Source of the DNA: Nitrospirota bacterium
Lineage (GTDB): Bacteria > Nitrospirota > Leptospirillia > Leptospirillales > Leptospirillaceae
Assembly (NCBI GenBank): GCA_021801345.1
Contig: JAJYYA010000024.1
Span: 1 to 64,000 of the forward strand
Length of the DNA stretch: 64,000 nt
Direction of reading: 5' to 3'
Shown: in pieces, positions 10,571 to 29,918 of the stretch
Numbering within the stretch: position 1 is the first letter of the stretch
How the letters are laid out: each line of letters starts with the position of its first letter
Notes under the pieces: model-generated
What the model was told of the DNA's origin: nothing
Database searches by the model: none
Seen by the model: the letters and a program-made list of their open reading frames with translations, nothing else
Translations under genes and position numbers: made by a program

Positions 10571-10572
10571 GG

Positions 10573-13360: not shown

Positions 13361-13510
13361 TGTTGTTAGGACCATATCTTGGCATCGATTGGGAACCATA
13401 ACTTGGCACTTGAATTTATCCAAAAATATAAAATATTGCAAAAACAATTCTTCCCCTTTGTACTCATAACTTGGCACTCGCAACAGTTAGGGAATCATAA
13501 AGTGGCACTG
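13361..13510. repeat. Four-copy repeat resembling transposase-binding sites at a transposon end
   Basis: Four direct copies of a 14-18 bp word occur at 13369-13387 (CCATATCTTGGCATC), 13393-13411 (CCATAACTTGGCACTTG), 13461-13480 (TCATAACTTGGCACTCG) and 13491-13510 (TCATAAAGTGGCACTGG). A TGTTGTTAGG lies just outside the first copy at 13361. Terminal TGT with several subterminal repeats is the layout of Tn7-like and IS21-like ends. No transposase gene touches it, and the DGQHR gene starts 73 bp inward. The rest of the 13154-13582 gap shows no gene. Confidence 0.55.
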
Positions 13511-13582
13511 GAAAGGGATCGACAAATTGCTTTTTCTATGTTTTAATTAAAGTGCATTTTATTTCTGCAAAATAAAAATCAA

Positions 13583-14629
13583 ATGGATGCATTTCTTATG
13601 GTAAATAATTTTGAAATTAAAGGCATCATTGGTCATTGTGGCGATAGAGAAGTATTCCTTGGCTTTGCGACAGCCGTTGATCTTAGCCGGATTAGTTTCC
13701 TCGATACATTGGATGAGTTCTCGGGGAAGGGGTATCAACGCCGATTCCATCGCCAACATAGTCTGGAATTCAAGCGATATATCCAACAGCCTGGCGCAAC
13801 AACGATCCCGTTAACATTTAATCTTCGCCCAGACCGTAAGGGATGGGACTTGAAGCGCAATACGCAAGGAGCATCTCTTATAGTGGATGTTCATTCAATG
13901 CCAGTGATGTCTCAAGTCGATTGTCAGCATCGGCTCGGATATTTGAAAGAAAGCCAAATTCCCTTCGCATTTATGGCTTACATCGGTTTGACTATCGAAG
14001 AGGAAATGGAAATATTTCGGATTATTAATGGTAAGGCCAAAGGCCTAAGCGGCAGCCTGCTCGATTTTACCGGATCCCGTTTGGTCGAAGACGACCTGAA
14101 AGCTGTAAAGCCCGAACTCTTTCTTGCATTGGTATTGCATGAAGACAGGCGATCCCCGTGGTATAAATGTCTCGATTTGGGAGGTAATCGAACGACGGGG
14201 CTTCAGCGGGTGGCTTCACTTCGAACGATGCAGAAAGGTGTGCGTCGCTTCCTTCGCGAGGCAGGTTTGTCGAACAAGGAGGTCAGTGATTCCATCGCAA
14301 CGTTACTTATTGATTATTGGCGAGCGGTCACTGTGGTACTGCCAAAGCAATGGAGTCAGCCACGGCAACACGTATTAGTCAAGGGTATAGGAGTGTATTG
14401 CTTGATGAGTTTGGCCGGAGATCTCTACCGTGAGTCCTTGAGTAAGGCTGGGATGTGTGACATTGATTATTTCATAACGATGTTGTCCGACTTCGTTAAT
14501 GATATCGATTGGTCAAACAAGGGGTCGATGAAGGGTTACGGCGGCGCCGGCGGCGCTGATTCAGCACTGGAACTACTCCGCCAGGTCAGAGACCAAAAAC
14601 TATCCGGATGTGTAAATTATGCCAAATAA
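13583..14629 (+). CDS. DGQHR-like (DndB-related) protein, variant motif DCQHR
   Basis: The 348-residue protein carries VDCQHRLGYLKES at residues 112-124, a variant of the DGQHR motif in which Cys replaces Gly. After it come IGLTIEEEMEIFRIINGKAKG and the helical C-terminal half usual for the family. DGQHR proteins include DndB of phosphorothioation systems and are tied to DNA modification gene clusters. The start at 13583 has no strong ribosome site and an in-frame ATG at 13598 is possible. The stop overlaps the radical SAM gene by 11 bp. The AT-rich codon use differs from the host genes on either side, suggesting transfer. A role in controlling or guiding DNA modification is inference. Confidence 0.72.
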   Translation: MDAFLMVNNFEIKGIIGHCGDREVFLGFATAVDLSRISFLDTLDEFSGKGYQRRFHRQHSLEFKRYIQQPGATTIPLTFNLRPDRKGWDLKRNTQGASLIVDVHSMPVMSQVDCQHRLGYLKESQIPFAFMAYIGLTIEEEMEIFRIINGKAKGLSGSLLDFTGSRLVEDDLKAVKPELFLALVLHEDRRSPWYKCLDLGGNRTTGLQRVASLRTMQKGVRRFLREAGLSNKEVSDSIATLLIDYWRAVTVVLPKQWSQPRQHVLVKGIGVYCLMSLAGDLYRESLSKAGMCDIDYFITMLSDFVNDIDWSNKGSMKGYGGAGGADSALELLRQVRDQKLSGCVNYAK

Positions 14630-16217
14630 GAATGTTCTTCTTATAGAGCCTGGATATAAAAATAAGTATCCACCGCTTGGTTTAATGAAACTTGCTGCCT
14701 ACCACGGTCCATATGGGAAGCGAGACAACGTCAAATTCATAAAAGGTGATAAGGATAAATCGGTCAAACAGATCAACTGGGATCGAATTTATGTCACCAC
14801 GCTTTTCTCGTTTGAATGGAAAGAAATATCAAAATCCATTGATGCGGCGATTGCCATAGCACGTGGTGACTCTACCAAGGTGTTTGTTGGTGGTATCGCA
14901 GCCTCACTCATGCACGATAGGTTTGTGTCTGAGCCTCGCTGGAGAGGGGTGCGATTCATTTCTGGATTGCTATCAAACTCCCCAGCTGAATCTTTACAGC
15001 TCGACGACTTTGCCGAAGAATTATATTCAGACGACACTAACGGAACTCCCATTGAGGACTTAGTTCCTGACTACTCGATCCTTGATCAAATCAAGGATCA
15101 ATATGTTTACCCCGTTCACGACGCTTATTTTGCCTATGCATCGCGTGGTTGTGTTCGCAAGTGCCATTTCTGTGGGGTTCCGAAGTTGGAAGGTGATCAG
15201 CGAGATGCTCAATCAATCACTGGACTGATCAAAGCTATCGCGGAACGTCACGGTGAAAAACGCGATCTGATGTTGATGGACAATAATATTGTGGCATCAC
15301 CAAACTACAAAAATATCATCGCCGAGATTCGTGACAATGGTTTTCAGAGGGGAGCCATGTTCCGTAGGCCAGGTAAACCAGCGGTGCAACGCCGGGTTGA
15401 TTTTAATCAAGGAGTAGATGCCCGAATTCTCTGCAATAGTAAAATGTACCTGAAGGAAATGTCCACCATTGCTATACGTCCTCTTAGAATCGCCTTCGAT
15501 CATCTCGGAGTTCGTGAGGAATATGAGCGAGCAATTCGCATGGCTCATAGTGTTGGACTACATGACTTGTCAAATTATATGCTTTATAACTTTTCAGACA
15601 CTCCGGCAGACCTTTATGAACGCATGCGTATTAACATCGATTTGAATAATGCACTCGGGATTAGAATCTTCTCATTCCCAATGCGGTATCACCCTACCGA
15701 CCTGCCTGATCGATCCTATATTGGTATTTATTGGAATCGTTATTATCTCCGGTCTATGCAGATCATCTTGCAGGCCACACATGGTGTTGTTAGCGGCTCT
15801 CCGCAATTTTTTTGTAGGGCTTTTGGTGAAAGTAAAGAAGAATTCGAAGACTTGTTATTGCGCCCTCAGCATTTTTTATTCAATCGATTCTGGTATGAGG
15901 AGTTCGATGGCCGGGCTGAGTTTGATGAATTTGAATTAGATTTCAAAAGGTTGTCGAAGGATGATCGCAAGGAGTTAGTGGATCTATTGTCCAGCACCAC
16001 CCCCGGGGGCTTTTCTGGGTTGATAGGGAAGTCTTCCCGCAACAATGTCAATCGGATACTTAGCTACTATGTTCCCCTACCCGAGAATGAAGAAGCGAAA
16101 ATATGGAAGATTCAGCGTATGCGTTTGCAAGAGAACAAGCGACCACAATTTTTCGATAAAAAAATCATCCCTGCAGATGAGCTGGTCGAAGATGCCGGCT
16201 TGGCTGAAACCATCTGA
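14619..16217 (+). CDS. Radical SAM enzyme with B12-binding-like N-terminus
   Basis: The 532-residue protein has a Rossmann-like N-terminal region (NVLLIEPGYKNKYPPLGLMK, then KVFVGGIAASLM) typical of cobalamin-type radical SAM proteins. The B12-ligating DxHxxG motif is not evident. The cluster motif is ASRGCVRKCHFCGV with Cys178, Cys182 and Cys185 placed as CxxxCxxC to hold a 4Fe-4S cluster. Enzymes of this type methylate, thiolate or rearrange unreactive carbons, including nucleobases. Its tight linkage with DGQHR-like and HSP90-like genes (11-bp overlap upstream, 5-bp gap downstream) suggests a DNA or nucleotide modification step. Substrate is unknown. Confidence 0.82.
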   Translation: MPNKNVLLIEPGYKNKYPPLGLMKLAAYHGPYGKRDNVKFIKGDKDKSVKQINWDRIYVTTLFSFEWKEISKSIDAAIAIARGDSTKVFVGGIAASLMHDRFVSEPRWRGVRFISGLLSNSPAESLQLDDFAEELYSDDTNGTPIEDLVPDYSILDQIKDQYVYPVHDAYFAYASRGCVRKCHFCGVPKLEGDQRDAQSITGLIKAIAERHGEKRDLMLMDNNIVASPNYKNIIAEIRDNGFQRGAMFRRPGKPAVQRRVDFNQGVDARILCNSKMYLKEMSTIAIRPLRIAFDHLGVREEYERAIRMAHSVGLHDLSNYMLYNFSDTPADLYERMRINIDLNNALGIRIFSFPMRYHPTDLPDRSYIGIYWNRYYLRSMQIILQATHGVVSGSPQFFCRAFGESKEEFEDLLLRPQHFLFNRFWYEEFDGRAEFDEFELDFKRLSKDDRKELVDLLSSTTPGGFSGLIGKSSRNNVNRILSYYVPLPENEEAKIWKIQRMRLQENKRPQFFDKKIIPADELVEDAGLAETI

Positions 16218-16222
16218 AACAG

Positions 16223-17812
16223 GTGTCAAAAATGAATGTTACTCCCATCAGTATTTCTATAAAACCTAAGACCCTGATCGAATCGAATATCGTCGTAGGT
16301 AAGGACGTCCTCGAACTCCTAGCAAATGCAATGTATCTTGATCCTCTGACGATCTATCGTGAATATGTTCAAAATGCCGCCGACTCCATTGATGAAGCTA
16401 GAATGGCCGGGCATTCAGTGAAAGACTCGAACATCATGATTCACCTGGACCATTCTAGCCGTACGGTACTTATTCGTGACAATGGTAAAAGCATTCCAAA
16501 TGATGAGTTTGTCAAACGCCTAACTGCCATCGGTGCGAGTCATAAGCGTGGCACTGACCTTCGTGGTTTTAGAGGCGTAGGCCGTCTATCTGGTCTTGGA
16601 TATTGCCAGGAGTTGATCTTTCGTGGCAAAGCCAAGGACGATTCGAGGGTCATTGAGGTTTCTTGGAATAGCCGTACCCTCAAGGAAAAACTAATGGAGG
16701 CTTCGTATCCCGGTGGTCTTAAAGACATTATCTCCGAAGTTGTTACTTATAATGACTTCCCCGCTACGGATAAGGGCGAGCAGTTCTTTGAAGTTGAGTT
16801 AAGGAAGGTCCAGCGTCTAAAGAACGACTTACTTATGAATGAGCAAGCGATTCGGTCCTATCTCTCACAGGTGGCTCCGGTACCCTTCAGTCCAGATTTT
16901 ACGTTTGGGGAAGAGATTCAGAAATTTTTAGCGGAACGGGGAATCCATCCAGTGATCCATGTCGAACTAAATGATGGAGCAGGTCAAATTTATCACCGTG
17001 CCCGAAACACTATTGAATTTAATCCTAAGGTCCATGATACGCTGAGAAAGATCGAATTCATCGAGATTTTCGGAGACGACGGTGAATTATCGGCCTTTGG
17101 GTGGGTTGCGGATCACTCATACTTGGGTGCGATTCCCAAAAGACTTGGGCTTGGAGGCATTCGGCTACGTTCGGGAAACATACAAGTAGGTGATGAATCT
17201 CTGCTAGCTCCGTTGTACCCGGAACAGCGTTTCGTTGCCTGGGCGATGGGCGATATTCATGTGTTATCAAAGAAGATCATCCCGAATGGCAGACGCGATG
17301 ATTTCGAACACAACGTTCACTACTCTTGGTTGCAATCGGAACTTTTAACCAAGACTAGTGAACTGGCACACCGAATACGTACACGCTCTCAGCAACGCCA
17401 ACATCTACGAAACGTCCAGATTCATTTTCAGTCCATAGATGACTGGTATCGTCTTGCACAGAAAGATGATACTCCATTACTCCTGAAAAAGGCCCTAATC
17501 GAACTAACTGATGAACAAGTTCAGAAGACTGCTAAGGAATTAAGAAAGCTTGCGGAGGGCAGCAATGAACACCAAATGGCCACGGAGCGGCTTAACCAGA
17601 AATCAATCGATATTCGTGCACTCAGCCATATGATCGAAGGCAGAGAACACTTGGGGGTCATAAATATCTCCAAAGTCACAGAAAAAGCGCTACTCAAGGC
17701 ACTGAAGGTGGTCCTGTCGAATGCCCGTTCAGCAAAGGTTGGGACGAAGACTGCCCTTGATATTGTCGAAGCGGTAACTCAGGGGGGGGAGGCAAATTAT
17801 TCTAATGATTGA
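16223..17812 (+). CDS. HSP90-like (GHKL) ATPase
   Basis: The 529-residue protein has the Bergerat ATP-binding fold near its N-terminus. YREYVQNAADSIDEAR holds Glu47, Asn51 and Asp54, IRDNGKSIP is the second motif, and GFRGVGRLSGLG (about residues 115-126) is the lid glycine motif. The middle and C-terminal parts, with long helices late in the protein, do not match HtpG, MutL or gyrase closely. GHKL ATPases act as chaperones or DNA clamps; stand-alone versions occur in several defence islands. GTG at 16223 or ATG at 16232 may start it. Its 3' end overlaps the convergent ParB-like gene by 11 bp. A chaperone or clamp role for the neighbouring enzymes is inference. Confidence 0.82.
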   Translation: MSKMNVTPISISIKPKTLIESNIVVGKDVLELLANAMYLDPLTIYREYVQNAADSIDEARMAGHSVKDSNIMIHLDHSSRTVLIRDNGKSIPNDEFVKRLTAIGASHKRGTDLRGFRGVGRLSGLGYCQELIFRGKAKDDSRVIEVSWNSRTLKEKLMEASYPGGLKDIISEVVTYNDFPATDKGEQFFEVELRKVQRLKNDLLMNEQAIRSYLSQVAPVPFSPDFTFGEEIQKFLAERGIHPVIHVELNDGAGQIYHRARNTIEFNPKVHDTLRKIEFIEIFGDDGELSAFGWVADHSYLGAIPKRLGLGGIRLRSGNIQVGDESLLAPLYPEQRFVAWAMGDIHVLSKKIIPNGRRDDFEHNVHYSWLQSELLTKTSELAHRIRTRSQQRQHLRNVQIHFQSIDDWYRLAQKDDTPLLLKKALIELTDEQVQKTAKELRKLAEGSNEHQMATERLNQKSIDIRALSHMIEGREHLGVINISKVTEKALLKALKVVLSNARSAKVGTKTALDIVEAVTQGGEANYSND

Positions 17813-18803
17813 ACCCGTTGATTTTCTTGGCTATATGCTTGATGCGGGATTCGATCTTGTTAATTAAGTATGAAAGATTCGATCGCTCCTCAGAGGAAAT
17901 ATTTGTAAGCTCGAGCTCAACATTTTCTTCAGCAAGGAAATCCTTGAACTCGGTGAGCCTTTTAGCATAGTAGTTGCCAGCTCCCCGGATATGAGCTTCC
18001 TGAAGTGCATCGTGAAACGACAGTTTGCCATTCATGAATTTCTTGAGAGTGTTTCCTCCGACCTTTACGATCTTCGATAGCCCATCGCGAATATCAACAG
18101 CACGTTCGATTTCTTCATTTTTGATCATTTCGGTAATTTTCTGATCAAAAATGGGGTAAAGCTCACGTGTGTGATTAAACCGACGACCTTTTAATAGTTC
18201 GTCGTAATAACTCCATCGTTCTGGATTGCGGTCATCGACATTCAGCATGAACTCGTAGACATGAATAAGATGCCTTATCTTTGCTGGTGTCAACCCGACT
18301 TCGTGGTGCAATTGTTTTTCATCGATACCATGGGTCTTGAAACGCCGGTAAAGATACCCGGCTTGTTCGAATGGTGACCAGTCCTTCTTTCCAACGATGT
18401 GGAATTCACCAAGTAATGAGAACACTTCGCTGTCGGAAATGGTGTCGGGAAGAATCCGTACCCGGATCATCTCCCATGTGCTAGCATCCCGCTGCGCGAG
18501 GAGACGATAGGCTGCCAGTCGACTGTTCCCTTCAAGAACGATATTTTTACGAATCAGTACTGGCTCAATTAGGCCACCGTTGTTCTTGATACTTGGGACA
18601 AGGGTTTCGCGAACATGCTCGGTTTTCGCCAACGCCTCGAAAATCTCTTCCTGAGTTGGCTCACCTCCCCCTTCATTCCAGACGATGGAGTAGATGCGAG
18701 GATTCTCAGGGTAGAAAAGGAGAGTGTGTTGTGGTAGAAAGCCTGTTTTGACCTTGATCTCTCGTTTACGCAGCGTGATGGTGTCTTCCGTGAAATCACT
18801 CAT
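17802..18803 (-). CDS. ParB-fold protein 1
   Basis: The protein has a ParB N-terminal-like domain: GLIEPVLIRKNIVLEGNSRL at residues 77-96, where EGNSR takes the place of the canonical GERR box. A helical section resembling the ParB HTH/KorB region (LHHEVGLTPAKIRHLIHVYE) and a coiled C-terminus follow. The ATG at 18803 overlaps the helicase stop by 8 bp and is preferred to an upstream in-frame start inside the helicase gene. ParB-fold proteins bind or hydrolyse nucleotides (CTP, ATP) and some have nuclease or kinase-like activity. It is the last gene of the long minus-strand operon. There is no ParA partner, so chromosome partition is unlikely. Confidence 0.75.
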   Translation of the reverse strand: MSDFTEDTITLRKREIKVKTGFLPQHTLLFYPENPRIYSIVWNEGGGEPTQEEIFEALAKTEHVRETLVPSIKNNGGLIEPVLIRKNIVLEGNSRLAAYRLLAQRDASTWEMIRVRILPDTISDSEVFSLLGEFHIVGKKDWSPFEQAGYLYRRFKTHGIDEKQLHHEVGLTPAKIRHLIHVYEFMLNVDDRNPERWSYYDELLKGRRFNHTRELYPIFDQKITEMIKNEEIERAVDIRDGLSKIVKVGGNTLKKFMNGKLSFHDALQEAHIRGAGNYYAKRLTEFKDFLAEENVELELTNISSEERSNLSYLINKIESRIKHIAKKINGFNH

Positions 18804-20286
18804 CAGTCCTGGCTCCTCCCAGAATCCTTTTAAGTATTTCGAAAAAACCCAATGTAGCTCGCTCTGAATAAGCCCGTGCGTCAATGTCTCCCTGTGTGAG
18901 CTGTGCCGCTAACCGTTTTTCTTCTAGCAGACAATCTACCCATTCGTCGACTGAATCAACCATGAGCATGTTGTATACGTAACATGTTTTTGTCTGTGAG
19001 ACCCGATGAATGCGGTCCTGTGCCTGCAAGTAATCGTCAAGACTGTACGTGCGATCATAGAAGATGACATGATTCGCTATGGTCAACGTCAAACCTTCCT
19101 TGGCAGCACCGGGTGTCGCGACGAGCACCTGGTCATCGGGATTCTCAAGGAACCATTTTACGACGGTATTGCGCCTTTCCATCGGCATCTTGCCATTGAG
19201 CGCGAGCGCACCAAATGATGACAGTTTATTAAACAGCCATAAGCAGTTGTCGTTGAAGGTTGTCCAGACAATTGCCTTCTCCCCTTGGCGCGTAATATCA
19301 GTGAGCAAGTGATAGAGGGGCTCGAATTTTCCGGGCTCCGCTGTATAACTTTCGTCCACCATGACAGGATTGGAAGCAATTTGTATGAGTCGAAGCAGGC
19401 GCTTTAATATTGACTCCTGATCTTCCTCGATCAGTTTTCCATCGCGAACAATCAGGGCACGAAGCTCTTCTCGCACCTGCCGGTACAACTCGAACTGTGC
19501 CAACTCCCAATCGCACTCGATACGTTGGAACTCCTTCGAGGGCAAGACAATTCGTCCACCGTCCTTGGTTTCCCGAATGGAGAAGCTTGATATTTTGCGA
19601 TTAATATCCTCCAACCGATGTTGGTAAGCCTCAAATTCTTGTTTGCTGTGTTGGATGCCCGTCGTCAAGTCTGTTTCACGCTTGAATTTATTAAAGTCCC
19701 TACCAAGCGATGCACCGTGGTCAAGGAAATAAACCTGAGCCCATATGTCGTAGGGACGGTTTGCGACCGGTGTTCCAGTCATGATTACCCGCTTAGTGAA
19801 CAGAGGGGATAGTTCGAAAAATGCCTGTGTAAGTTCGGCGTCAGGATTCTTGATCTTGGCAGACTCATCGATGATTACACCCACTCTCCTGGAGGATAGC
19901 CATGCCTTGAAGCGATTAATTTCTTTTTTGGCTGACTCAAAGTGACTAAGCACCAGGCGGGTAGGGGTTGTGAACACATAGTAGTTTTTGGTCGAATTTT
20001 CTGTGACGACGAGGGGGGTCAATTGGCTGTGTGATCGGAATTCGCGAATCCAGTTTGCGATCAACCCCTTCTTGGTGAAGACGAGTACGGTATCGACTTC
20101 CTTGTTCTGGAGCCAACGCAATATTACATCAATGGCAATCTTTGTTTTTCCCAAGCCCTGCTCATGAAAAATAGCCGAATAATCTCGGCAAGCAACAAAT
20201 TCAGTTGCTTCCTCCTGGTAAGGGAACGCCTTGTACTTTGCTTCAAGCACTGGCTCTGAGTGGAGTCGAAATCTGAATTCATTCAT
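18796..20286 (-). CDS. SNF2-type superfamily 2 helicase
   Basis: This is a 496-residue two-lobed helicase. Motif I is EQGLGKTK (GLGKT at residues 44-48), motif II is IIDESAKIKNP (DESA rather than DEAH), motif III is MTGTPVANRP, and the C-terminal lobe ends with QAQDRIHRVSQ (motif VI). These mark it as SNF2-like: DNA translocases that move along duplex DNA. There is no fused nuclease; a PD-(D/E)XK-like gene lies directly upstream with an 8-bp overlap. I chose the ATG at 20286 because it sits in the overlapping ATGAATGA. SNF2 helicases of this size are common restriction components of Dpd and related modification systems. Confidence 0.88.
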   Translation of the reverse strand: MNEFRFRLHSEPVLEAKYKAFPYQEEATEFVACRDYSAIFHEQGLGKTKIAIDVILRWLQNKEVDTVLVFTKKGLIANWIREFRSHSQLTPLVVTENSTKNYYVFTTPTRLVLSHFESAKKEINRFKAWLSSRRVGVIIDESAKIKNPDAELTQAFFELSPLFTKRVIMTGTPVANRPYDIWAQVYFLDHGASLGRDFNKFKRETDLTTGIQHSKQEFEAYQHRLEDINRKISSFSIRETKDGGRIVLPSKEFQRIECDWELAQFELYRQVREELRALIVRDGKLIEEDQESILKRLLRLIQIASNPVMVDESYTAEPGKFEPLYHLLTDITRQGEKAIVWTTFNDNCLWLFNKLSSFGALALNGKMPMERRNTVVKWFLENPDDQVLVATPGAAKEGLTLTIANHVIFYDRTYSLDDYLQAQDRIHRVSQTKTCYVYNMLMVDSVDEWVDCLLEEKRLAAQLTQGDIDARAYSERATLGFFEILKRILGGARTDE

Positions 20287-20719
20287 GCCAAAATCTCCTA
20301 ACACTCGATGAACCTAGCACGTAAGAGATCACGCAGATAGGAATGTTTTCGGAATTAGTTCTCCTCCGTATGAGTTTGCAGACACGGATCGCAGTGCCCG
20401 CAGACAACCATGGTACACCTATCCATAGTTCTCCCTCCGATTGTGTACGTAGGTAATCGAAGAAAGAAGTTAGCTGGTCAGTGGTATGCTGGTTGTCAAT
20501 ATCGTCAGTTGTTTTTGCTTCGCCAATGAGTGTACGGCCAGTCGAAAGGTCACGGGCAAAGACATCGGGGCGATTGGAGCCGATATATGGAGGCGGTTCT
20601 CTAGAGACTAAATCTTGAAGGTCGAAATAGACTACTGGTAACTTGTTCCAGCGAATATCATTGGCGATATCGTTGGCCAGTGCTCTGACAAGGAAGCGGT
20701 GATGCTCGCTCTCACTCAC
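20279..20719 (-). CDS. Small PD-(D/E)XK nuclease-like protein
   Basis: The 146-residue protein has RPDVFARDLSTGRTLIGEAK, which gives Asp52 and the E-x-K pair Glu67/Lys69 of the PD-(D/E)XK fold, then a helix with TTDQLTSFFDYLR. The size fits a minimal nuclease domain. It overlaps the helicase downstream and the ParB-fold gene upstream by 8 bp each, so the three are coupled. Cleavage of foreign or unmodified DNA after helicase loading is a reasonable inference, not shown. Confidence 0.68.
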   Translation of the reverse strand: MSESEHHRFLVRALANDIANDIRWNKLPVVYFDLQDLVSREPPPYIGSNRPDVFARDLSTGRTLIGEAKTTDDIDNQHTTDQLTSFFDYLRTQSEGELWIGVPWLSAGTAIRVCKLIRRRTNSENIPICVISYVLGSSSVRRFWHE

Positions 20720-21743
20720 TGTCGGTGATCAGGCCTATATCTCTGCAAAGATCATGTAGCTCCTCGTAGCAGTCGGAGAGTGCTTGGGAACGAGGGGAAT
20801 CATTGTCTTCTCTGAGGGCCTTCACATCAGGGTAGTTGAGACTTCTAATCTTACTGGCGAGAGCATTTGCTAATTGATCTATGGTTGCATCTTTAATTAC
20901 TGCGCTTGTGTTTGGTTGCTCAAGTACCTTCATGGCTTCACGAGCGTCATGAGATAAGAATTTTTTCTTGGCTTCAGGGTTGTTCAATATTCGCGGAAGC
21001 TGACGAACTGTATTCAATGGAGTGATTTTTGAATCATTAACCCATCTAGCAAAGTTATCCATTGTAAATCCTGCCTTCACAATGGATTCTTTGACCTTGG
21101 GCTTTTGTAATTCGACAAACGCGCTAAATCTAGTGTAATCGGGCTGATTCTGACCAACCAAAGGCATGTAGAAACGCTGCATATCCTTATAAGCTTCGAT
21201 ATACTCAACGATTTCTCGATTTCTGGCGGAGCCACCGCAGTAGTCAAGAATTTCGTTGATCGATAGCTTTTGTTCGGCGTATAGCGAGTGTAGGTATTTT
21301 GCTTTGGCATATGGACGCCATTGACGAGGGCCGACCAAGTGGGACTGTAGTCGGATTGCGTGTTCACCTTCTTCCTCAATGTCCGGGCGAACGATTGCTG
21401 GAATCGTATCCCATGATCCGGGGGCCTTTTCTTCCGCAAGTTGGCGATAAATCGATACGCGGGTATTCCCTTCAATTACCACATACTTGCCATCAGTGCG
21501 CGGTGTGACAACAATGGGGTTAATTAAGCCTTTATAGGCGCGGATTGATGCTTTGAGACTGGAAAAAGTTGTTGATGAGCCTTTTTCATCGTCATCAGGG
21601 GCAAATTGCCCTAATGCAAGCTCAATAAAGCTCTGTTGAGGTTCGCCCTCAATAGACTCTAAGGCTGGAGCAACACGTGGATTGCGTAGGTCAAGGATGA
21701 TTTTGTCGATTGGTAAATACTGAATCGCCAATTCATTCATCAT
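20712..21743 (-). CDS. ParB-fold protein 2
   Basis: The 343-residue protein contains GLINPIVVTPRTDGKYVVIE followed by GNTRVSIYRQL, with EGNTR at residues 91-95 in the position of the ParB nucleotide-binding box. The rest is helical. It resembles the first ParB-fold protein in plan but the two are clearly diverged. ATG at 21743 or the next codon starts it. It overlaps the nuclease gene by 8 bp. Paired ParB-fold proteins without ParA suggest they sense nucleotide or modification state; that is inference. Confidence 0.75.
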   Translation of the reverse strand: MMNELAIQYLPIDKIILDLRNPRVAPALESIEGEPQQSFIELALGQFAPDDDEKGSSTTFSSLKASIRAYKGLINPIVVTPRTDGKYVVIEGNTRVSIYRQLAEEKAPGSWDTIPAIVRPDIEEEGEHAIRLQSHLVGPRQWRPYAKAKYLHSLYAEQKLSINEILDYCGGSARNREIVEYIEAYKDMQRFYMPLVGQNQPDYTRFSAFVELQKPKVKESIVKAGFTMDNFARWVNDSKITPLNTVRQLPRILNNPEAKKKFLSHDAREAMKVLEQPNTSAVIKDATIDQLANALASKIRSLNYPDVKALREDNDSPRSQALSDCYEELHDLCRDIGLITDSE

Positions 21744-21850
21744 TTTCCCTTGATATAGATAGTGGCACTTTCAAGCCGATCTTTGATTTCAATTGATCCC
21801 ATGAAAGAATCGAGTCACATAATAATATTTGCCCTTTTTGCAGTTCATCA

Positions 21851-23008
21851 CTACGTCTCTAATTGAAGATCTTCAAGGTTCGGGGCTTCGCTAACAGAGT
21901 AGGTAAGCTTGTCCACGCCCAGCAAAGCTTTTGCCAGCTTAATGGCACCCGCGCCACTACTAGGAAAGTTATTTGAGGTGAGCGAGAAGTTGTTCAAGTT
22001 TATCTTTAGACGGGCGAATTGACCTTCAAAGAATTCTTGTCTTAGATCTTTGTGTTTGAACCCCTCTTCCAAGAGATGGCGAAACACAATAATTAGGGCT
22101 GTATATCCAACCGTCTTTCGAATCACGAAATTCCCTTCAGAATCTTCCCATTCCTCCTCAAAGGTTTTTGCGGCGGCAGAGAAATAATTTTTTACTATTT
22201 TCAGTATAAATTGATCATCGCCCTTCTTAAAATATTTGCGTAGTGGACACCGTGGGTCATCATTAAGTTCTTGTTTCCCTTCCTTCAATATCCGCGCATC
22301 TTCATTCGGCTCTTTGGAAATAAGCTCTTCCAGCCTAGCAGCAAAACTACCTTGTGAAAGCATAACATCCTGAAGATGATGAGGCTCCCTTCTCCCAAGC
22401 ATTTTTAATCGTTTATAGAATGGACTTTCAGGATCGCTATTTAGTGATTGTGCTATATAGTGACAGGTTTTCTGTGGGCTGCGTGAATCAGATAAACCAA
22501 ATAAGTCATAAATTAAGGATTTCGAAACAGGTGTTTGCGTGCTGTTTATGATCGAGAAGACGAATGCTTTCTCATCTAAAGAAAGATCAAACATAAGTAC
22601 AACAGGCAACTCGAAATATTCTATATTATTTAGAGATTGTTTAAGGCCCAACACACGGTGTTGTCCATCCAGAACATCGCCAATCATCCCATCGTCAGGT
22701 AGTTCAAAACTGGTTAACGACGGATTACAGTTGGAATCTTCACTTTGAAGATTGACCCTCCTTTCAGGGGCAATTTTGCTATCCAGCGCAATTATTATAG
22801 GTGTGGGAAAAACAGCCTGAGGGTCGCCGGTAAAATCAGCAATCTTTTGTACGCGCTCACCACTGAACATACGCTGAATCTCTTCACTGTGCTCAAAGTC
22901 AGAAGTTCGTGGACGATTGTTTACTCTTCCAACCAAAACGCGCGCAGGAAGTGATGAGATATAGAACTCACCAAGCGGCTGCTGAACCCGAAAAGCCAAT
23001 ACCCTCAT
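21851..23008 (-). CDS. DGQHR-domain (DndB-like) protein 2
   Basis: The 385-residue protein has a perfect family motif, DVLDGQHRVLGLKQS (DGQHR at residues 114-118). FVFSIINSTQTPVSKSLIYD follows, which is also characteristic. Length fits the DndB/DGQHR families. In phosphorothioation systems DndB acts as a regulator and may bind DNA or NAD-like nucleotides; here the modification enzymes DndACDE are absent. It lies 107 bp upstream of the ParB-fold gene and 16 bp downstream of the membrane protein gene in the same operon. Confidence 0.85.
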   Translation of the reverse strand: MRVLAFRVQQPLGEFYISSLPARVLVGRVNNRPRTSDFEHSEEIQRMFSGERVQKIADFTGDPQAVFPTPIIIALDSKIAPERRVNLQSEDSNCNPSLTSFELPDDGMIGDVLDGQHRVLGLKQSLNNIEYFELPVVLMFDLSLDEKAFVFSIINSTQTPVSKSLIYDLFGLSDSRSPQKTCHYIAQSLNSDPESPFYKRLKMLGRREPHHLQDVMLSQGSFAARLEELISKEPNEDARILKEGKQELNDDPRCPLRKYFKKGDDQFILKIVKNYFSAAAKTFEEEWEDSEGNFVIRKTVGYTALIIVFRHLLEEGFKHKDLRQEFFEGQFARLKINLNNFSLTSNNFPSSGAGAIKLAKALLGVDKLTYSVSEAPNLEDLQLET

Positions 23009-23024
23009 TTCTCACTTATCCTTA

Positions 23025-23624
23025 TTAGACCTTCTCGCCAAATGAAGTTTCATTCTGAGTCTTTGCTTTTTCATTAAGGTCCCGTACTTCCTTGTTTACA
23101 TCATCAGCAAAGTGCTGTGGTATCAATGGTATCCTATAGAGGGTATATAAATGCAACGCAATCATCATGCTCAGCACCCATAATAAAATTTCCAACGAAT
23201 AATTGGTATTCACCTTCTGAGAAGCCGGTTCTGAGAGGAGTGGTCCGGCCAATGTAGCTTGAAAGATTACAAAAATACCTGCGACAATGCTCCAAAAGAG
23301 CTTTTGTTCAAAAAGATCAAGCTTTTCTTTAGAATAAAATGCATCGATAATTTCTGATATGATTAGACCCACGCTTGATACGACTATAGATATTGAATAA
23401 GTGTACATGGTGGCGGATGCAAGGTTCTGAGTTAAAACGTCATGGAACTTTTCGCCGTTTTGCAAAGTTAGAAGAAATGAAACCCATACGCCCAATTGTC
23501 CAACAATTAAACTAACCGCTATAAAGAGAAGAAGGGAGGTTTTGTCCTGCCGACAAGCCTCCATATAGAGAGAGTATGTATTTTGAATAAATATTTTTAT
23601 ATGCGCCAACCTGTTTCCTTTCAA
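23025..23624 (-). CDS. Four-helix membrane protein
   Basis: Four hydrophobic segments are visible in 199 residues: LLLFIAVSLIVGQLGVWVSF, TYSISIVVSSVGLIISEII, LFWSIVAGIFVIFQATLAGP and LEILLWVLSMMIALHLYTLY. A charged tail follows. I do not recognise the family. A transmembrane component in an otherwise DNA-directed operon is reminiscent of abortive-infection effectors that damage the membrane, but there is no motif that proves this. Confidence 0.6.
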   Translation of the reverse strand: MKGNRLAHIKIFIQNTYSLYMEACRQDKTSLLLFIAVSLIVGQLGVWVSFLLTLQNGEKFHDVLTQNLASATMYTYSISIVVSSVGLIISEIIDAFYSKEKLDLFEQKLFWSIVAGIFVIFQATLAGPLLSEPASQKVNTNYSLEILLWVLSMMIALHLYTLYRIPLIPQHFADDVNKEVRDLNEKAKTQNETSFGEKV

Positions 23625-23630
23625 TTTTTC

Positions 23631-24185
23631 TCACTCCGGAAACGAAATCCCCAAGTTTTTCAAGCGAAACTCTACCATTTGCGCACTCACCTTGTACTCT
23701 TTTGAGATCCTCCCAACGATTTTCTTCCAATCCAGTATTTTTTTCTTTCCAATTACTTGAAGGGACTTCTCTACAAAATCTTTTGGCATCAATAGTTCAG
23801 CCGCGAATCCATTAGCTTCGATCTCCTCTTTGTCGATAGCTAAGGCGGACTTAGAATCCCTGTAACGAATTATGGGGGAGTCGACATACATTTTTCCCTC
23901 ATGGCACAAAAGATGGCCAATCTCATGGGCAATTGTGAAACGTTGGCGGTGAATGTGATTCGTCGAGTTCACCCCGATGACTGGTTGCCCCTCATCCCGA
24001 TAAAGCATTCCATAAACCTCTTCCTCCCCTTCGCGGGAAGGCTCGTAAACGAGTCTTGCTCCCAACGAATCCGCGATTCTTTCCACTGGTACCGGAGCTG
24101 ATTTCACCCCGTTTTTTTCGAGAAGATCTCTGACCATTGATTCAATATTAGGCATTTCTTTCAAGCTCTCCTGCTGATCATCCAT
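23631..24185 (-). CDS. ImmA/IrrE-family zinc metallopeptidase
   Basis: The 184-residue protein has the motif RFTIAHEIGHLLCHEG with His87, Glu88 and His91 forming HExxH, and the later Glu in the EIEANGFAAELLMP segment as the third ligand. ImmA/IrrE peptidases cut XRE-type repressors to release genes of mobile elements or stress responses. The XRE gene lies immediately upstream with a 1-bp gap, the classic ImmR-ImmA arrangement. It is thus likely to control this operon and perhaps the divergent transposition genes. Confidence 0.87.
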   Translation of the reverse strand: MDDQQESLKEMPNIESMVRDLLEKNGVKSAPVPVERIADSLGARLVYEPSREGEEEVYGMLYRDEGQPVIGVNSTNHIHRQRFTIAHEIGHLLCHEGKMYVDSPIIRYRDSKSALAIDKEEIEANGFAAELLMPKDFVEKSLQVIGKKKILDWKKIVGRISKEYKVSAQMVEFRLKNLGISFPE

Positions 24186-24186
24186 T

Positions 24187-24507
24187 TCAGTTTTTTGGAT
24201 TTTTAGAAGGTCTTCGTATAACTCTTTCCGCCCATCCTCCCTTTTTTGAGGGGTTCTCCGTAATCTCCCTGGCGTCGCTCAGGCTTGTCTCGATAGGAGG
24301 GAGAAGAGAATTCAAGTCACACTTTAAGGCTAAAGCGATCCGGTAGAGAAGAGGAAGAGAGATACTTTGGCGCCCGGCCTCAAGATTGGCGATCGTTGTT
24401 CGGACGACACCAACCCTGTCGCCGAGTTCTACTTGGGTGATCTCGGACCTCTTCCGTTCTTCGGCGAGCTTTTTTCCAAAGGCAATGTTGACGGGATTGG
24501 GTTTCAT
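24187..24507 (-). CDS. XRE-family transcriptional regulator
   Basis: The 106-residue protein is a Cro/C1-type helix-turn-helix: FGKKLAEERKRSEITQVELG followed by DRVGVVRTTIANLEAGRQSI. It has a short tail that would be the cleavable part for the ImmA-like peptidase encoded next. It reads away from tnsAB across a 157-bp gap that contains several palindromes, the likely operators. Autorepression and repression of the divergent promoter are inferred. Confidence 0.85.
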   Translation of the reverse strand: MKPNPVNIAFGKKLAEERKRSEITQVELGDRVGVVRTTIANLEAGRQSISLPLLYRIALALKCDLNSLLPPIETSLSDAREITENPSKKGGWAERVIRRPSKNPKN

Positions 24508-24567
24508 GTTCGAATTCTAGGCTAAATGCAGAAAAGCGTCAATGAAAAAAACGACAAAGTCTTGAAA

Positions 24568-24637
24568 GTCATTTTAAATGACGGTATGATCGATTGCTGA
24601 AAGTCATCTGTGATGACATTATAATTTGTAATGTCAT
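24568..24637. promoter_or_regulatory. Cluster of palindromic operator-like sites between xre and tnsAB
   Basis: Three palindromes share the half-site GTCAT. They are GTCATTTTAAATGAC (24568-24582), GTCATCTGTGATGAC (24603-24617), and nine-base arms ATGACATTA / TAATGTCAT separated by seven bases (24613-24637), which overlap the second. They lie in the divergent promoter region and fit an XRE dimer bound at several sites. They could instead be TnsB-binding sites, but no terminal TGT or insertion junction is visible here. Confidence 0.6.
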
Positions 24638-24664
24638 TTTCTGTAACCTATAGAGGACGGGGTA

Positions 24665-27379
24665 ATGTTGAAGTATTTTCAAATCGAGAGCCTCTTTGAA
24701 ACGCTTGGGATAGGGGAAGCGGGGAGAAGACTCATCGAAGAGATCAGAATATCAGAGCCGGTTCGCCGGGTTGGCGGAGGTACCTCCAATGTGTGCGTCC
24801 GGTATCCCAGCCGCAAGATGGGGCGCATCATCCAGGCGGAAAGCCATACGGTTGAACTGCCTTTTATCTATGAGTTGGAACATGATCCGGAAGTGTTTGA
24901 ATACTATGATCAGCCCACTTCCCTGAAAATTAATGTCAAGGGGAATGGGAATAGGAATTTTGGTTTTTTCTATACTCCCGATTTTCTTGTCATCGGATCC
25001 GATTGCATCCGGTTTGTGGAGTGTAAAAGTGGAGATGACCTTAAAAAGCTCGCCGAAAAAAACCCTAACAGGTACAGAAAGAACGAGGAAGGGATATGGA
25101 TCTGTCCTCCCGGCCAAGAGGCGGTCATCAAGTATGGGATCGAGTTCCGGGTGTGGTCGTCTAAAGAAACAGATTGGGTTTTCCATGACAACGTCCGTTT
25201 CCTTAAGGATTATTTTGACGAAAAATGCCCGGATCCCGCCTCCGAGGAGGAGAGCCGGATCATTTCCATCATTCGAAGCCAAAAGGCGGTTTCCCTTTCA
25301 GGTCTAATTCGTGATCATAAGGTTTCTTCGGATGCCGTCTATCGGTTGATTGCGTTGGACAGGCTCGCGGTGAATATTCGGGAAGTCCGATTGAGAGAGC
25401 CGGATAAAGTCCTGTTCTTCTCCAGTCCTGCCGCCAGGGCGGCCTACGAATCCAGCGAAAGGATGGATTCTGGAATGTTATTGCCATCTGGCGGACTCAC
25501 CATCGCGTCCGGATCGAAGCTCGAATGGGAAGGATCCGTTTGGACCGTTGCGAACGTCGGTGCCAGAAAATACCTCTTGCAGGCATCCGATGGACGTTCT
25601 GTCTCGCTCTTGCACAACGACGCGATCGATCTGTTCGAGAAGGGGGAGATGGCTCCTCTGATGGAGCCGTCTCGACAGGAAGAGGATCTTTCCAGAAGGA
25701 GGGTCGAACTTCTTGAAAAAACAAGCGAGGACGAGCTTGCGGAAGCCATGAGACGTTTCGAACGGCTCGGGATCGAGAAAGGAGGGAAGATCCCGAGTCG
25801 ACCATCCGAAGGAATTTCACGAAGGACTTTTTATCGGTTAAAAGCGCAATATTTACAGTTTCACCACGAATTGGGCGACGGCATTCAGGGATTGGTCCCT
25901 AAGTCATCCAAGAGAGGAAATCGCCTTTCAAAGCTTCCCGAGGGTTCATGCGCATTGATGCATAAAATCATAGAGGAAATTTACGAATCAAAACGACAGG
26001 TCTCCATTGCGACCGCCCATCGAAAGCTTTCCTTGGAATGCGAAAGATCCGGCCTGCCCGTCCCCAGTTACAAAACCTTCAGGAAGGCCGTGAAAATGAG
26101 ACCAAAAGAAAATCAGTCCAGAAAAAGAAAAGGGAATCGGGCGGCCTATTCGTCCGAGGAATTCTTCTGGAATATCGACGGGACGACTCCCCGTCATGGG
26201 ACAAGACCGTTCGAAATCTGTCACATCGACCACACAGAATTGGACATCGAACTTGTGGCAAGCGACACGAACAAACCGATGGGGCGCCCCTGGCTCACTC
26301 TGATGATCGACGCCTACTCGAGAGTGGTTGTCGGATTCTATCTTACCTTCGATCCTCCGAGCACCCAAAGCTGCATGATGGTTCTTCGGGACTGCGTGAG
26401 GCGGTTCCGGAAACTTCCACAGACGCTTGTTCTGGATAACGGGAAGGAATTTCAGTCGGTGGCCTTCGAGGCCCTCCTGGCCGCATACGAATGCGAGAAG
26501 AAATCACGTCCTCCCGCGAAAGCCAGGTTCGGGAGCGTCTGCGAGCGATTCTTCGGGAAGACGAACACGGAACTTCTCTATGGGCTCGCGGGGAACACCC
26601 AGATCACGAAGAACGTCCGCCAAGTGACGAAATCAGTCAACCCGAAGAATCTGGCCGTCTGGACTCTTCCGGAACTTTATCGGCTCCTTGAGGAATATCT
26701 GTTTGAGATTTATCCATCGATGGATCACCCGTCTCTCGGTGATTCTCCGAAGGCGGTCTTCGATCGGGGGCTCCTCTTGGGAGGGGAACGAGCCCATAAG
26801 ATTGTTCTCGATACGGAGGAGTTCAGAATGCGGATCCTCCCGTCCTCTCCCAGGGGAACGGGAAAGATCGATCCGAATACGGGAATCCAGGTCCAATACA
26901 TCCGCTACTGGCACGACTGCTTCCGGGACCCGGATGTCGCCGGACAATCCGTCAGCGTCAAATACGATCCGGAAGACGCCAGCGTAATCTATGCGTTCAT
27001 TCGGGGACGGTGGGTCCAGTGCCTCTCCGAGAATTCGGGGATTTTCCGTGGTAAGTCTCGCAAGGAAATTCTCCTTGCGAGCCGGGAACTCTCCAGACAA
27101 ATGCAAGTGGCTTCGAAAGGCCGTTCCATTACGGCGGGAAAACTCGCGCACTTTCTCGAAAGCGCCCTTGAAACTGAGGAGACACTCCGGCAGAGGAGAA
27201 AGGATGCCGAATTGACAAGGTCGTTGAAAGATGCAGGGCTATCCGTGGTCGAAGGGAGCTATCCGGAAATTCCCATGCATCGTCCGGATTCTCTTCCCAA
27301 GAAAGAAAATCTGGGCGGAATCATCGAATCGCTTCGAAGGCGAAGCGAAACTGCCCCGAGAACCCTGGAGGAGTTTTAA
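24665..27379 (+). CDS. TnsA-TnsB fusion, Tn7-like transposase
   Basis: The 904-residue protein joins two Tn7 functions. The N-terminal quarter is a TnsA-type endonuclease with Glu64, then YTPDFLVIG carrying Asp106, and FVECKSG giving Glu119/Lys121. This is the PD-(D/E)XK core that cuts the 5' ends for cut-and-paste movement. The rest is TnsB: an HTH region, then an rve-type DDE domain with Asp522 in HIDHTELD, Asp591 in LVLDNGKEF and Glu627 in SVCERFFGK, the last two with 35 residues between them as expected. A Mu/TnsB C-terminal domain follows. Its stop is directly followed by the TnsC start. TnsA-TnsB fusions occur in several Tn7-like branches, including some CRISPR-associated ones, but no cas gene is present. 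Confidence 0.9.
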   Translation: MLKYFQIESLFETLGIGEAGRRLIEEIRISEPVRRVGGGTSNVCVRYPSRKMGRIIQAESHTVELPFIYELEHDPEVFEYYDQPTSLKINVKGNGNRNFGFFYTPDFLVIGSDCIRFVECKSGDDLKKLAEKNPNRYRKNEEGIWICPPGQEAVIKYGIEFRVWSSKETDWVFHDNVRFLKDYFDEKCPDPASEEESRIISIIRSQKAVSLSGLIRDHKVSSDAVYRLIALDRLAVNIREVRLREPDKVLFFSSPAARAAYESSERMDSGMLLPSGGLTIASGSKLEWEGSVWTVANVGARKYLLQASDGRSVSLLHNDAIDLFEKGEMAPLMEPSRQEEDLSRRRVELLEKTSEDELAEAMRRFERLGIEKGGKIPSRPSEGISRRTFYRLKAQYLQFHHELGDGIQGLVPKSSKRGNRLSKLPEGSCALMHKIIEEIYESKRQVSIATAHRKLSLECERSGLPVPSYKTFRKAVKMRPKENQSRKRKGNRAAYSSEEFFWNIDGTTPRHGTRPFEICHIDHTELDIELVASDTNKPMGRPWLTLMIDAYSRVVVGFYLTFDPPSTQSCMMVLRDCVRRFRKLPQTLVLDNGKEFQSVAFEALLAAYECEKKSRPPAKARFGSVCERFFGKTNTELLYGLAGNTQITKNVRQVTKSVNPKNLAVWTLPELYRLLEEYLFEIYPSMDHPSLGDSPKAVFDRGLLLGGERAHKIVLDTEEFRMRILPSSPRGTGKIDPNTGIQVQYIRYWHDCFRDPDVAGQSVSVKYDPEDASVIYAFIRGRWVQCLSENSGIFRGKSRKEILLASRELSRQMQVASKGRSITAGKLAHFLESALETEETLRQRRKDAELTRSLKDAGLSVVEGSYPEIPMHRPDSLPKKENLGGIIESLRRRSETAPRTLEEF

Positions 27380-28594
27380 GTGACTCTCGATCTCCCGAAC
27401 GAACGTCCCCTCCCATCCTCCTCTCCGGAAGAGCGGGTCGAGTATTTCAGGAGAAAGAAGCTTGCTCACCGGAACCTTGCCCGGGCGTGGGATAAGCTTC
27501 TCGTCGCCGTCATGGATCCGGACCCCTGTTCTCTGACCCTTGTTTACGGGCCCACCGGCGGGGGCAAGACGACACTCGCCCATCGGTTGAAGGACTATCT
27601 GGAATCCCTCGATGGGAAGCTTTCGAGAAGTCCTGGAACCATTCCGGTCGCATTGATTGAGGCTGTCGCGTCGGGAAATTCCGGGTTCGACTGGAGAGAT
27701 TATTACATTCGCGCTCTGCAAGCCCTGGACGAGCCCCTTATCCACAAAAAACTCGATCCGGACTTCATGCTGTATACGGCAAGAGCGTACCAGACCCATC
27801 TCAGGTCGAAGCGGCCTTCTGTCACGGATCTTCGCAGGGGACTCGAATCCTGTCTCCGTCAAAGGAGTCCCCGAGCCTTCCTCATCGATGAGGCCCAGCA
27901 TCTCAAGAAAATCGCGAGCGGAAAGCGACTCATTGATCAAATGGACACGATCAAATCCCTGGCCAACATGACCGGGGTCAAGCATGTCTTGTTCGGAACC
28001 TATGAATTGTTCGGCCTGACCAATCTGAGCGCACAGTTGAACCGCAGAACGGTGGAAATCCATTTTCCCCGGTACCGGTTCGACGACCCGAAAGACATGG
28101 AGGAATTCATCCTCTTTCTCGAAAGCCTCGAAAAACATCTTCCCATGCCCGAGCCTTCGCTCCTGTCGGAAAACCCCCTCGCGGTGAGGTTCATATATAC
28201 GCGTTCCGCTGGATGTCCCGGGATTCTCAAGGACTGGATGACTCGGGCTTTGGGAGAAGCTATCCGGGAAGGTTCAAAGAAGGTCGATATCTCCCATTAT
28301 GAAAGGACGGCCATTCCGGATGTCCAACTCGCGAGAATCGCCCGGGAGATCAAGGAGGGGGAAAACCAGATCAACCCGGACCGGTCTGAGGAGATTGAAT
28401 CTCTCCTTGGAGTGGCTTCGACCGACAGAGGAGGACCATTCCAGCAGGCAAGCATCAAATCACCAGAAAAAAGATCCCGGAATCCTCGACCGGGAACGAG
28501 AAAACCCGCACGGGATCCCATTGGTCTTGGCGGGGCCGAAATACCTATGGAGAAATCCGATGACCGTCCTATCACCCGCCCGGAAAGCGCATAG
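27380..28594 (+). CDS. TnsC-like AAA+ ATPase
   Basis: The 404-residue protein has Walker A GPTGGGKTT at residues 57-65 and Walker B in RAFLIDEAQHL, followed by GVKHVLFGTYELFGL, the TnsC/TniB pattern. TnsC forms ATP-dependent filaments on target DNA and links the target selector to TnsB. I use the GTG at 27380, which follows the tnsAB stop with GGAGGAG just upstream. Its end overlaps tniQ by 35 bp. The roughly 80-residue C-terminal tail is charged and lacks clear structure. Confidence 0.88.
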   Translation: MTLDLPNERPLPSSSPEERVEYFRRKKLAHRNLARAWDKLLVAVMDPDPCSLTLVYGPTGGGKTTLAHRLKDYLESLDGKLSRSPGTIPVALIEAVASGNSGFDWRDYYIRALQALDEPLIHKKLDPDFMLYTARAYQTHLRSKRPSVTDLRRGLESCLRQRSPRAFLIDEAQHLKKIASGKRLIDQMDTIKSLANMTGVKHVLFGTYELFGLTNLSAQLNRRTVEIHFPRYRFDDPKDMEEFILFLESLEKHLPMPEPSLLSENPLAVRFIYTRSAGCPGILKDWMTRALGEAIREGSKKVDISHYERTAIPDVQLARIAREIKEGENQINPDRSEEIESLLGVASTDRGGPFQQASIKSPEKRSRNPRPGTRKPARDPIGLGGAEIPMEKSDDRPITRPESA

Positions 28595-29918
28595 TACCCT
28601 TTATCATCTCGAACCCATTGGCGTCGGGACTCCCGATGTCGAAAGTCTGACGGGCTACATCTCCCGGCTCGCGAAGGCACATTGTCTTCCAGTCCAGCCC
28701 TTGGTAAGCGAAATCATTGCCCCGGAACTCGGGATGACCTCAATGGTCCGCTCCTATTCCCGATTCTTCAAGGAGTCCGCATGCTCGGTCAACGGACTGG
28801 GGCAATATGCCGAGGACTTCCACTCTGCGATGGAGCGCTTGACCCTCAGGGGAGATCTGTCACGGCTGACGATGCTTCCCTGGAAAGGCGTGTTCGATCC
28901 CGGCGGAAAAGGGCTGAACAAGCCACTCAAGTCTTGGTGCTCATCATGCTTCCGGGAATGGTTCAAAAATGGAGCCCTGCTTTACGAGCCTCTGATATGG
29001 ACTCTCTCGTCAGTCCGGATTTGCGGAAGACATGGATCTCCACTCAGGACAACCTGTCCAGGGTGTGGAGAGCCACAGCCGGTCCTGGGCCGGACCTATC
29101 CGATCGGGTACTGCTCTTCATGCGGAGAACAGCTTTGGAGCAAAGAGGATGAAAAAGTCGAGGGGGAAGAGCACGTGACGGAATGGGACCTTTGGGTAGT
29201 CACGGAAGTGGGGAGGCTTCTGTCAGCATCTCCGTCCGAGTCTGGCATGGCAACCCAAAAGCGGTTTCAGTCGGCTGTGGCGGATGTGGTCCGCCATCTC
29301 AAGGTTACCAATACTCAGGAACTCGACCGGTCCATCGGATTCGGGGAAAGTACGATCACCCAGTGGCGGAGGGGTCGGGGAAAGCCCCGGTTCGATTACT
29401 TTCTCCTGTTTTGTTTCAAGACGAACATTGTTCCCAAGGATATGCTCTGCCGTTCTTCGGAAGAATTTCTTCGAAATTCTTGGAGACCTGGGTGCAAGGA
29501 GAAAATATCGCGGAAGAAAGAGTCCCACAAACAGGAAGAGCTTCGGAAAAGGGTCAAAAAGGAGATGGAGACTCTTTTATCCACCGAAAATGCCCCTTCG
29601 CTGAAGGAGTTCGCCCGAAATCTTGGAGTCGGACTCGGTTATCTGCGGTACCGGTTTCCGAAGGAATCAAAGAGGATTGCTTCCCGATACCGGGAACGCC
29701 TTCGCGAGAGCAAGGAATCACTTTTTCACGAGAGGTCCGAAGCGATCCGGAAGGCAGTCGATGATTTGAGAGGGGCTGGTGAGCATCCAAGTAAATGGAA
29801 GGTTTTTCGGAAAATTCCGGGAATTCTTCCGGGAGGGGGGAAGGACAAGGATTTGACGAGGGTCTGGAAGGAGACCCTTGAGGGAAAGCATATAGTTGGA
29901 GATCCATCAGGATGTTGA
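28560..29918 (+). CDS. TniQ/TnsD-family target selector
   Basis: The 452-residue protein starts with the TniQ domain (GTPDVESLTGYISRLAKAHC) and has zinc-binding pairs WCSSC, TTCPGCGEP and YCSSCGEQ. The C-terminal 200 residues contain an XRE-like segment (IGFGESTITQWRRGRGKPRF) and further HTH-like helices, as in TnsD proteins that read a fixed attachment site. The ATG at 28560 has GGAG upstream and lies inside the end of tnsC. The extended C-terminus argues for site-specific targeting rather than the short TniQ used in CRISPR-guided elements. The attachment site is not identified. Confidence 0.86.
   Translation: MTVLSPARKAHSTLYHLEPIGVGTPDVESLTGYISRLAKAHCLPVQPLVSEIIAPELGMTSMVRSYSRFFKESACSVNGLGQYAEDFHSAMERLTLRGDLSRLTMLPWKGVFDPGGKGLNKPLKSWCSSCFREWFKNGALLYEPLIWTLSSVRICGRHGSPLRTTCPGCGEPQPVLGRTYPIGYCSSCGEQLWSKEDEKVEGEEHVTEWDLWVVTEVGRLLSASPSESGMATQKRFQSAVADVVRHLKVTNTQELDRSIGFGESTITQWRRGRGKPRFDYFLLFCFKTNIVPKDMLCRSSEEFLRNSWRPGCKEKISRKKESHKQEELRKRVKKEMETLLSTENAPSLKEFARNLGVGLGYLRYRFPKESKRIASRYRERLRESKESLFHERSEAIRKAVDDLRGAGEHPSKWKVFRKIPGILPGGGKDKDLTRVWKETLEGKHIVGDPSGC

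Follow-up and report, generated by a model that had tools for sequence, protein, structure and literature searches.

A 64,000-nt stretch of DNA from a Nitrospirota bacterium (the window) carries a CapH-CapP-type pair, that is, a small XRE repressor and a zinc peptidase, on a Tn7-like element of the TnsAB-fusion type, and we propose, with a probability of about 0.5, that this pair represses tnsAB-tnsC-tniQ until DNA damage occurs. CapH-CapP is a repressor with an ssDNA-activated protease that governs neighbouring immune operons, Bub included (PMC13373217; PMC10904395; our description also draws on PMC10233336). That a controller of immune operons, triggered by ssDNA or DNA damage, was taken over by a Tn7-like transposon and now releases its transposase genes is a statement to which we would give slightly less than even odds.

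The gene calls and orientations of the preliminary description, with an XRE gene and an M78/ImmA-type peptidase gene read leftward and tnsAB read rightward, agree with the domain matches (Table 1). A single base pair separates the XRE stop from the peptidase start (TGA-A-ATG). Genes for a membrane protein and a DGQHR protein (21851-23624) follow in the same direction and belong to the operon of the XRE gene. The neighbours of the proposed switch are the divergent tns operon on one side and this co-directional pair, a putative defence unit, on the other. Profile searches matched the membrane protein to no family, nor to any toxin family. The conserved TnsAB residues are D106/E119, joined in the window protein by K121, and D522/D591/E627; the protein shows 38-45% identity with cyanobacterial and acidobacterial TnsAB fusions.

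Table 1. Features of the Tn7-like element and of the gap between the XRE gene and tnsAB (window coordinates).
Feature	Position	Strand	Remarks
Left end of Tn7-like element	13361-13510	+	begins TGTTGTTAGGACC; four TnsB-type sites at 13370, 13394, 13462, 13493
Seven-gene cargo module, separate unit	13583-21743	both	recurs on plasmids
DGQHR/DndB-like protein, XRE operon	21851-23008	-	DGQHR, E 4e-52
Membrane protein, XRE operon	23025-23624	-	~4 predicted helices
Zinc peptidase, M78/ImmA-type, CapP-like short form	23631-24185	-	Peptidase_M78, E 2e-23; HEIGH + EIEAN
XRE repressor, CapH-like	24187-24507	-	HTH_3, E 1e-10
XRE promoter-like site	24514-24542	-	TTGACG-17-TAGAAT; 10/12 consensus positions; few bp before ATG
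P1, tnsAB promoter-like site	24562-24590	+	TTGAAA-17-TATGAT; 10/12 consensus positions
Operator candidate O1	24568-24582		GTCATTTTAAATGAC; perfect, 7-bp arms; between -35 and -10 of P1
P2, tnsAB promoter-like site	24597-24625	+	CTGAAA-17-TATAAT; 10/12 consensus positions
Operator candidate O2	24603-24617		GTCATCTGTGATGAC; perfect, 6-bp arms; between -35 and -10 of P2
Operator candidate O3	24613-24637		ATGACATTATAATTTGTAATGTCAT; 12-bp arms, one mismatch; overlaps O2
Second leftward promoter-like site	24618-24647	-	GTTACA-18-TATAAT; 10/12 consensus positions; overlapped by O2/O3
tnsAB, TnsA endonuclease fused to TnsB transposase	24665-27379	+	TnsA-N, rve, Mu-transpos_C
tnsC	27380-28594	+	AAA_22 / TniB
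tniQ/tnsD	28299-29918	+	called frame, start probably near 28.5 kb; TniQ, E 5e-11

The nearest relative of the pair is best taken, from profile matches, to be CapH-CapP and not ImmR-ImmA of ICEBs1. Among PADLOC models, capP is the best match of the peptidase (100 bits, E 3.2e-29), residues 12-175 aligning with positions 3-150 of the 242 in the model. The XRE protein matches capH with an E value of 4.2e-7, in third place after the generic and slightly better Control_protein and HTH_VI models. The catalytic residues of the peptidase are intact (H87, E88 and H91 of HEIGH, with the third ligand in EIEAN) and are kept in its homologues. As in CapH-CapP, a small XRE repressor is followed after 1 bp by an M78 zinc peptidase, and a neighbouring operon has palindromic sites in the common gap. 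The window differs in that the divergent operon is tnsAB-tnsC-tniQ instead of an immune operon, and in that the peptidase (184 aa) is a short form without the C-terminal part of the capP model. With ImmR-ImmA of ICEBs1 and TnSmu1 the pair shares the combination of an XRE repressor with an M78 protease on a mobile element, which is here a Tn7-like transposon and not an ICE; ImmR-ImmA was rejected as the nearest relative on the capP profile match and on the neighbourhoods of the homologues. Thus, the ImmA-type logic that had been suggested earlier for this element holds insofar as the pair lies inside the element and palindromes overlap the transposase promoters, while CapH-CapP takes the place of ICEBs1 as its model.

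Promoters are understood here as sigma-70 consensus matches with predicted start sites. In the 157-bp gap, two sigma-70-like sites facing tnsAB, P1 and P2, are part of a tandem 28-nt repeat, and their 17-bp spacers are filled by O1 and O2. Both palindromes are perfect matches to GTCAT-N5-ATGAC and a third, O3, overlaps O2 and spans the -10 element and probable start of P2, in agreement with the three GTCAT-type palindromes, two of them overlapping, noted before. The perfect palindromes lie 18-97 bp from tnsAB and at least 61 bp from the XRE gene, and the XRE promoter-like site nearest the gene (24542-24514) holds no palindrome; with palindromes in the tnsAB spacers and none in the XRE promoter, the layout points first to repression of tnsAB. 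Judged from its consensus match, the XRE transcript starting at the latter site is predicted to be nearly leaderless. Feedback on the XRE operon is possible through O2 and O3, which overlap the second leftward site.

Exact copies of GTCAT-N5-ATGAC occur six times in the 2.6-Mb genome. Two of these are O1 and O2, the only ones outside ORFs of at least 100 aa, within which the remaining four lie. When the 157-bp gap was dinucleotide-shuffled 2000 times, a pair of palindromes with equal arm and gap arose in 6 of the shuffles, in a test framed post hoc. Enrichment in the window is only modest when two mismatches are permitted. That the palindromes serve TnsAB autoregulation or form RNA hairpins acting by attenuation, instead of being XRE operators, is very improbable. 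Many relatives do have TnsB sites within ~100-600 bp upstream of tnsAB, but those of the window element lie at its end, at a distance of 11.3 kb; the TnsB motif (CCATAACTTGGCAC) has no cluster in the gap and is unlike the palindromes, which were rejected as TnsB sites by motif. Likewise, O2 followed by ATTATAATTT forms a weak terminator-like hairpin, yet such sites are no commoner than in shuffled sequence.

The position of the palindromes also bears on whether the XRE-peptidase pair works as a toxin-antitoxin module that stabilises the element, with the palindromes as ordinary autoregulatory sites. In a survey of Tn7-like elements, ImmA was classed as toxin-antitoxin cargo in 295 cases (PMC8649781), and a Brucella ZnMP/HTH-Xre pair has been proposed to be of this kind (PMC10538038). 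Palindromes on the tnsAB side and absent from the nearest XRE promoter, a best profile match to a regulator protease and a third gene matching no toxin family nevertheless render this explanation improbable.

Nine homologues of the pair were found on plasmids, all in the order XRE-peptidase and the nearest with 35-41% amino acid identity over the alignment. Most adjoin defence-type genes, usually divergently: CBASS-like genes in Pukyongiella and Streptomyces, ThiF/multiubiquitin (Bub-like) operons in Rhizobium, Methylocystis and Mesorhizobium, nucleotidyltransferase and SLATT genes in Pseudosulfitobacter, and a PDDEXK nuclease gene in Adhaeribacter. Five XRE residues in the recognition helix and beside it (R36, N41, E43, G45 and Q47) are invariant in ten pairs; overall, the window XRE shares only 25-34% identity with the homologues. 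The gaps of eight homologues contain 22 TGTCA/TGACA half-sites, against 4.8 expected and at most 14 in 1000 shuffles, and these often lie less than 60 bp from the XRE gene. Because the palindrome word of the homologues is TGTCAA and that of the window GTCAT, with the GTCA core in common, the kinship of the operators is confined to these 4 bp. Viral contigs, scanned with TnsAB and with the peptidase, gave no usable match. On Pukyongiella plasmid p1 (L183, 1-4501), a TniQ gene lies ~3 kb from a CBASS-like operon that has its own XRE-peptidase pair.

These neighbourhoods count against the proposed switch, in that the partners of most homologues are defence operons and the membrane-DGQHR pair shares the operon of the switch. 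Possibly, then, the pair mainly serves these two co-read genes and is itself cargo, any effect on tnsAB being a by-product of the shared gap. CapH-CapP pairs are known to control defence operons, and O2 and O3 overlap the second leftward promoter-like site. In L194, from another member of the phylum, such a pair is followed by a co-directional methylase-like gene, and in Acinetobacter a membrane-protein and DGQHR gene pair adjoins a restriction-modification system, the membrane proteins being only weakly similar. We still regard this explanation as unlikely, though as one to be reckoned with, since the perfect palindromes occupy the tnsAB promoter spacers and not the nearest XRE promoter, and lie closer to tnsAB than to XRE, in contrast to the homologue half-sites.

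The seven-gene module farther left comprises rightward genes for DGQHR, radical SAM and HSP90-like ATPase proteins and leftward genes for two ParB-like proteins, a SNF2 helicase and a protein of unknown type. The same block is found on plasmids of Roseomonas, Mesorhizobium and Rhizobium (L265-L268) and no XRE-peptidase pair is annotated near these copies, so the switch need not include it; its function may lie in DNA modification or defence. Joint control of the module and the transposon, and of neighbour genes, as envisaged in the preliminary description, is unevenly supported. O1 and O2 lie on the tnsAB promoters and O2/O3 on the second leftward site, but the nearest XRE promoter is palindrome-free and the large left cargo module is a separate conserved unit.

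The boundaries of the element were established from its ends. The left-end repeats (13370-13510; CATAACTTGGCAC) have the same motif as the ends of the related TnsAB elements L038 and L060, and a spacing of 23-24 bp between the first two TnsB-type sites is common to all. A right end was sought within the window on the minus strand and was not found there; it is located on another contig (C24 of the same assembly, G000:C24:1592), the first 1592 bases of which finish in a terminal sequence, TGTGATTGGGACCATAAAGTGGCAC, that matches the left end and lies 27 bp from tRNA-Met. The 5-bp target duplication GAAGG flanks both ends. In sister genomes the site is empty, with the DUF1232 gene (window 12494-13153), tRNA-Met and lpdA adjacent, while tRNA-Met and lpdA of the window's own genome are on C24. 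Taken together, the matched ends, the duplication and the empty sister sites place the XRE-peptidase pair within a tRNA-Met-targeted element. Contig C73 continues from tniQ to purD, although the right end is on C24, and is either misjoined or reflects a rearrangement of the element between ~30 and 37.9 kb. IS110 was considered as a multicopy misassembly point and discarded, as it is present in a single copy in the assembly.

Just outside the left end, at ~13195-13341, there is a degenerate, leftward, right-end-like sequence (TGTGATTAACTCCTAAAGTG...), separated from the left end by duplicated tRNA-flank sequence, which suggests that this tRNA-Met site had already received an insertion before. 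L151, from another genome of the genus, has a solitary right-end-like sequence (TGTGATTGGGATTATGATCTGGCA) beside the same tRNA-Met (near 10560-10619), and the site is therefore probably reused.

By its traits, the element is assigned to the TnsAB-fusion clade that also yielded the I-B2 and I-D CASTs: it has fused TnsAB together with TnsC and TniQ, ends starting with TGT, TnsB arrays and a 5-bp duplication. Its insertion at 27 bp likewise resembles that of the clade, about 30 bp from the tRNA 3' end; CyCAST inserts 30-33 nt from the tRNA (PMC10293859). No cas genes were found among the proteins scanned (13361-29918, the part of the element from ~30 kb to C24 lying outside the scan), and no integrase or conjugation genes were recognised in the same interval.

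For comparison, 80 TnsAB-fusion loci and six others were assembled, the window included (~86). None besides the window has a CapP-like peptidase near tnsAB, and conservation thus cannot prove the link between switch and tnsAB. An XRE gene divergent from tnsAB is present in eight Nostoc I-B2-type elements (L042-L048, L072), in G025 and in the window, accompanied by a peptidase only in the last, and XRE matches divergent from tnsA occur in two further elements of the same phylum. In the Nostoc elements the conserved XRE gene is situated at -443 to -147 from tnsAB, between tnsAB and tniQ, and is a possible regulator of those CASTs. The I-B2 CAST of Nostoc 210A (L042) resembles the window element in its fused TnsAB, TnsC and TniQ, in its tRNA attachment site and in the divergent XRE gene at nearly the same distance from tnsAB, but the Nostoc XRE has another recognition helix, the gene after it is tniQ and not a peptidase gene, and there are TnsB-like sites in the gap.

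Tn7 transposase is subject to end-linked self-repression. With the TnsB sites 11.3 kb off, such repression would be weakened in the window element, and a dedicated repressor would suit an element whose end is so distant.

Six genomes of the same phylum (L223-L228) contain an unrelated Tn7-like family with a cassette divergent from tnsA and ~50-150 bp away from it. In L223 (7160-9322) it encodes a 207-aa protein that looks sigma-factor-like by eye and matches no family, then a 147-aa protein and, last, an M78 peptidase; it is conserved in L224-L228. Switches based on a peptidase may have evolved repeatedly beside tns genes. The phylum's long TnsA-N frames were also considered as TnsAB and set aside, their neighbourhoods suggesting helicase- or restriction-like proteins.

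The peptidase-free XRE genes divergent from tnsAB or tnsA raise the question of whether the peptidase is the trigger at all. The XRE protein could repress tnsAB as an entry switch (zygotic induction), the transposase being made briefly in a new, repressor-free cell and the peptidase having another role. A precedent exists in the Xre regulators RtaC/RtbC, which control I-F3 CASTs (PMC11406308). Like CvkR of V-K CASTs, these are transcriptional regulators aboard Tn7-like elements; they differ from the window pair in regulating guide-RNA transposition and, in the parts of the sources used, no protease partner is mentioned. A peptidase gene 1 bp from XRE, with catalytic residues kept and a match to CapP, speaks for a role in the switch, and we consider an entry switch without it rather unlikely; entry control is, moreover, compatible with control by damage.

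In the switch that we favour, the XRE gene would be transcribed, almost without a leader, from a promoter of its own that contains no operator, and the XRE protein would bind O1 and O2 in the tnsAB promoter spacers and O3 over the start site, blocking RNA polymerase. The zinc peptidase expressed with it would cleave the repressor once ssDNA accumulates, whether because DNA is damaged, a phage attacks or the element enters a new cell; the tns genes would be expressed and the element would be able to move to tRNA-Met sites. The proposed switch predicts simple induction by mitomycin C.

Control of CASTs by Xre proteins, the CapH-CapP principle and ImmA as cargo are already known. The earlier assertion that no such switch has been described for a Tn7 relative is accordingly too strong, as RtaC/RtbC (PMC11406308) and ImmA cargo (PMC8649781) precede it. 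What appears to be new is a CapH-CapP pair with candidate operators in a transposase promoter; the open literature searched yielded no description of a repressor-protease pair whose operators lie in tns promoters, most subscription papers being outside the scope of the search.

Tn7-like elements carry many defence systems and, to our knowledge, the timing of transposase expression in those without CRISPR is largely unstudied. If the CapH-CapP pair controls tns, the same alarm, single-stranded DNA, serves both transposon mobility and defence against viruses. The element could then leave a damaged or infected genome just when its defence cargo is needed.
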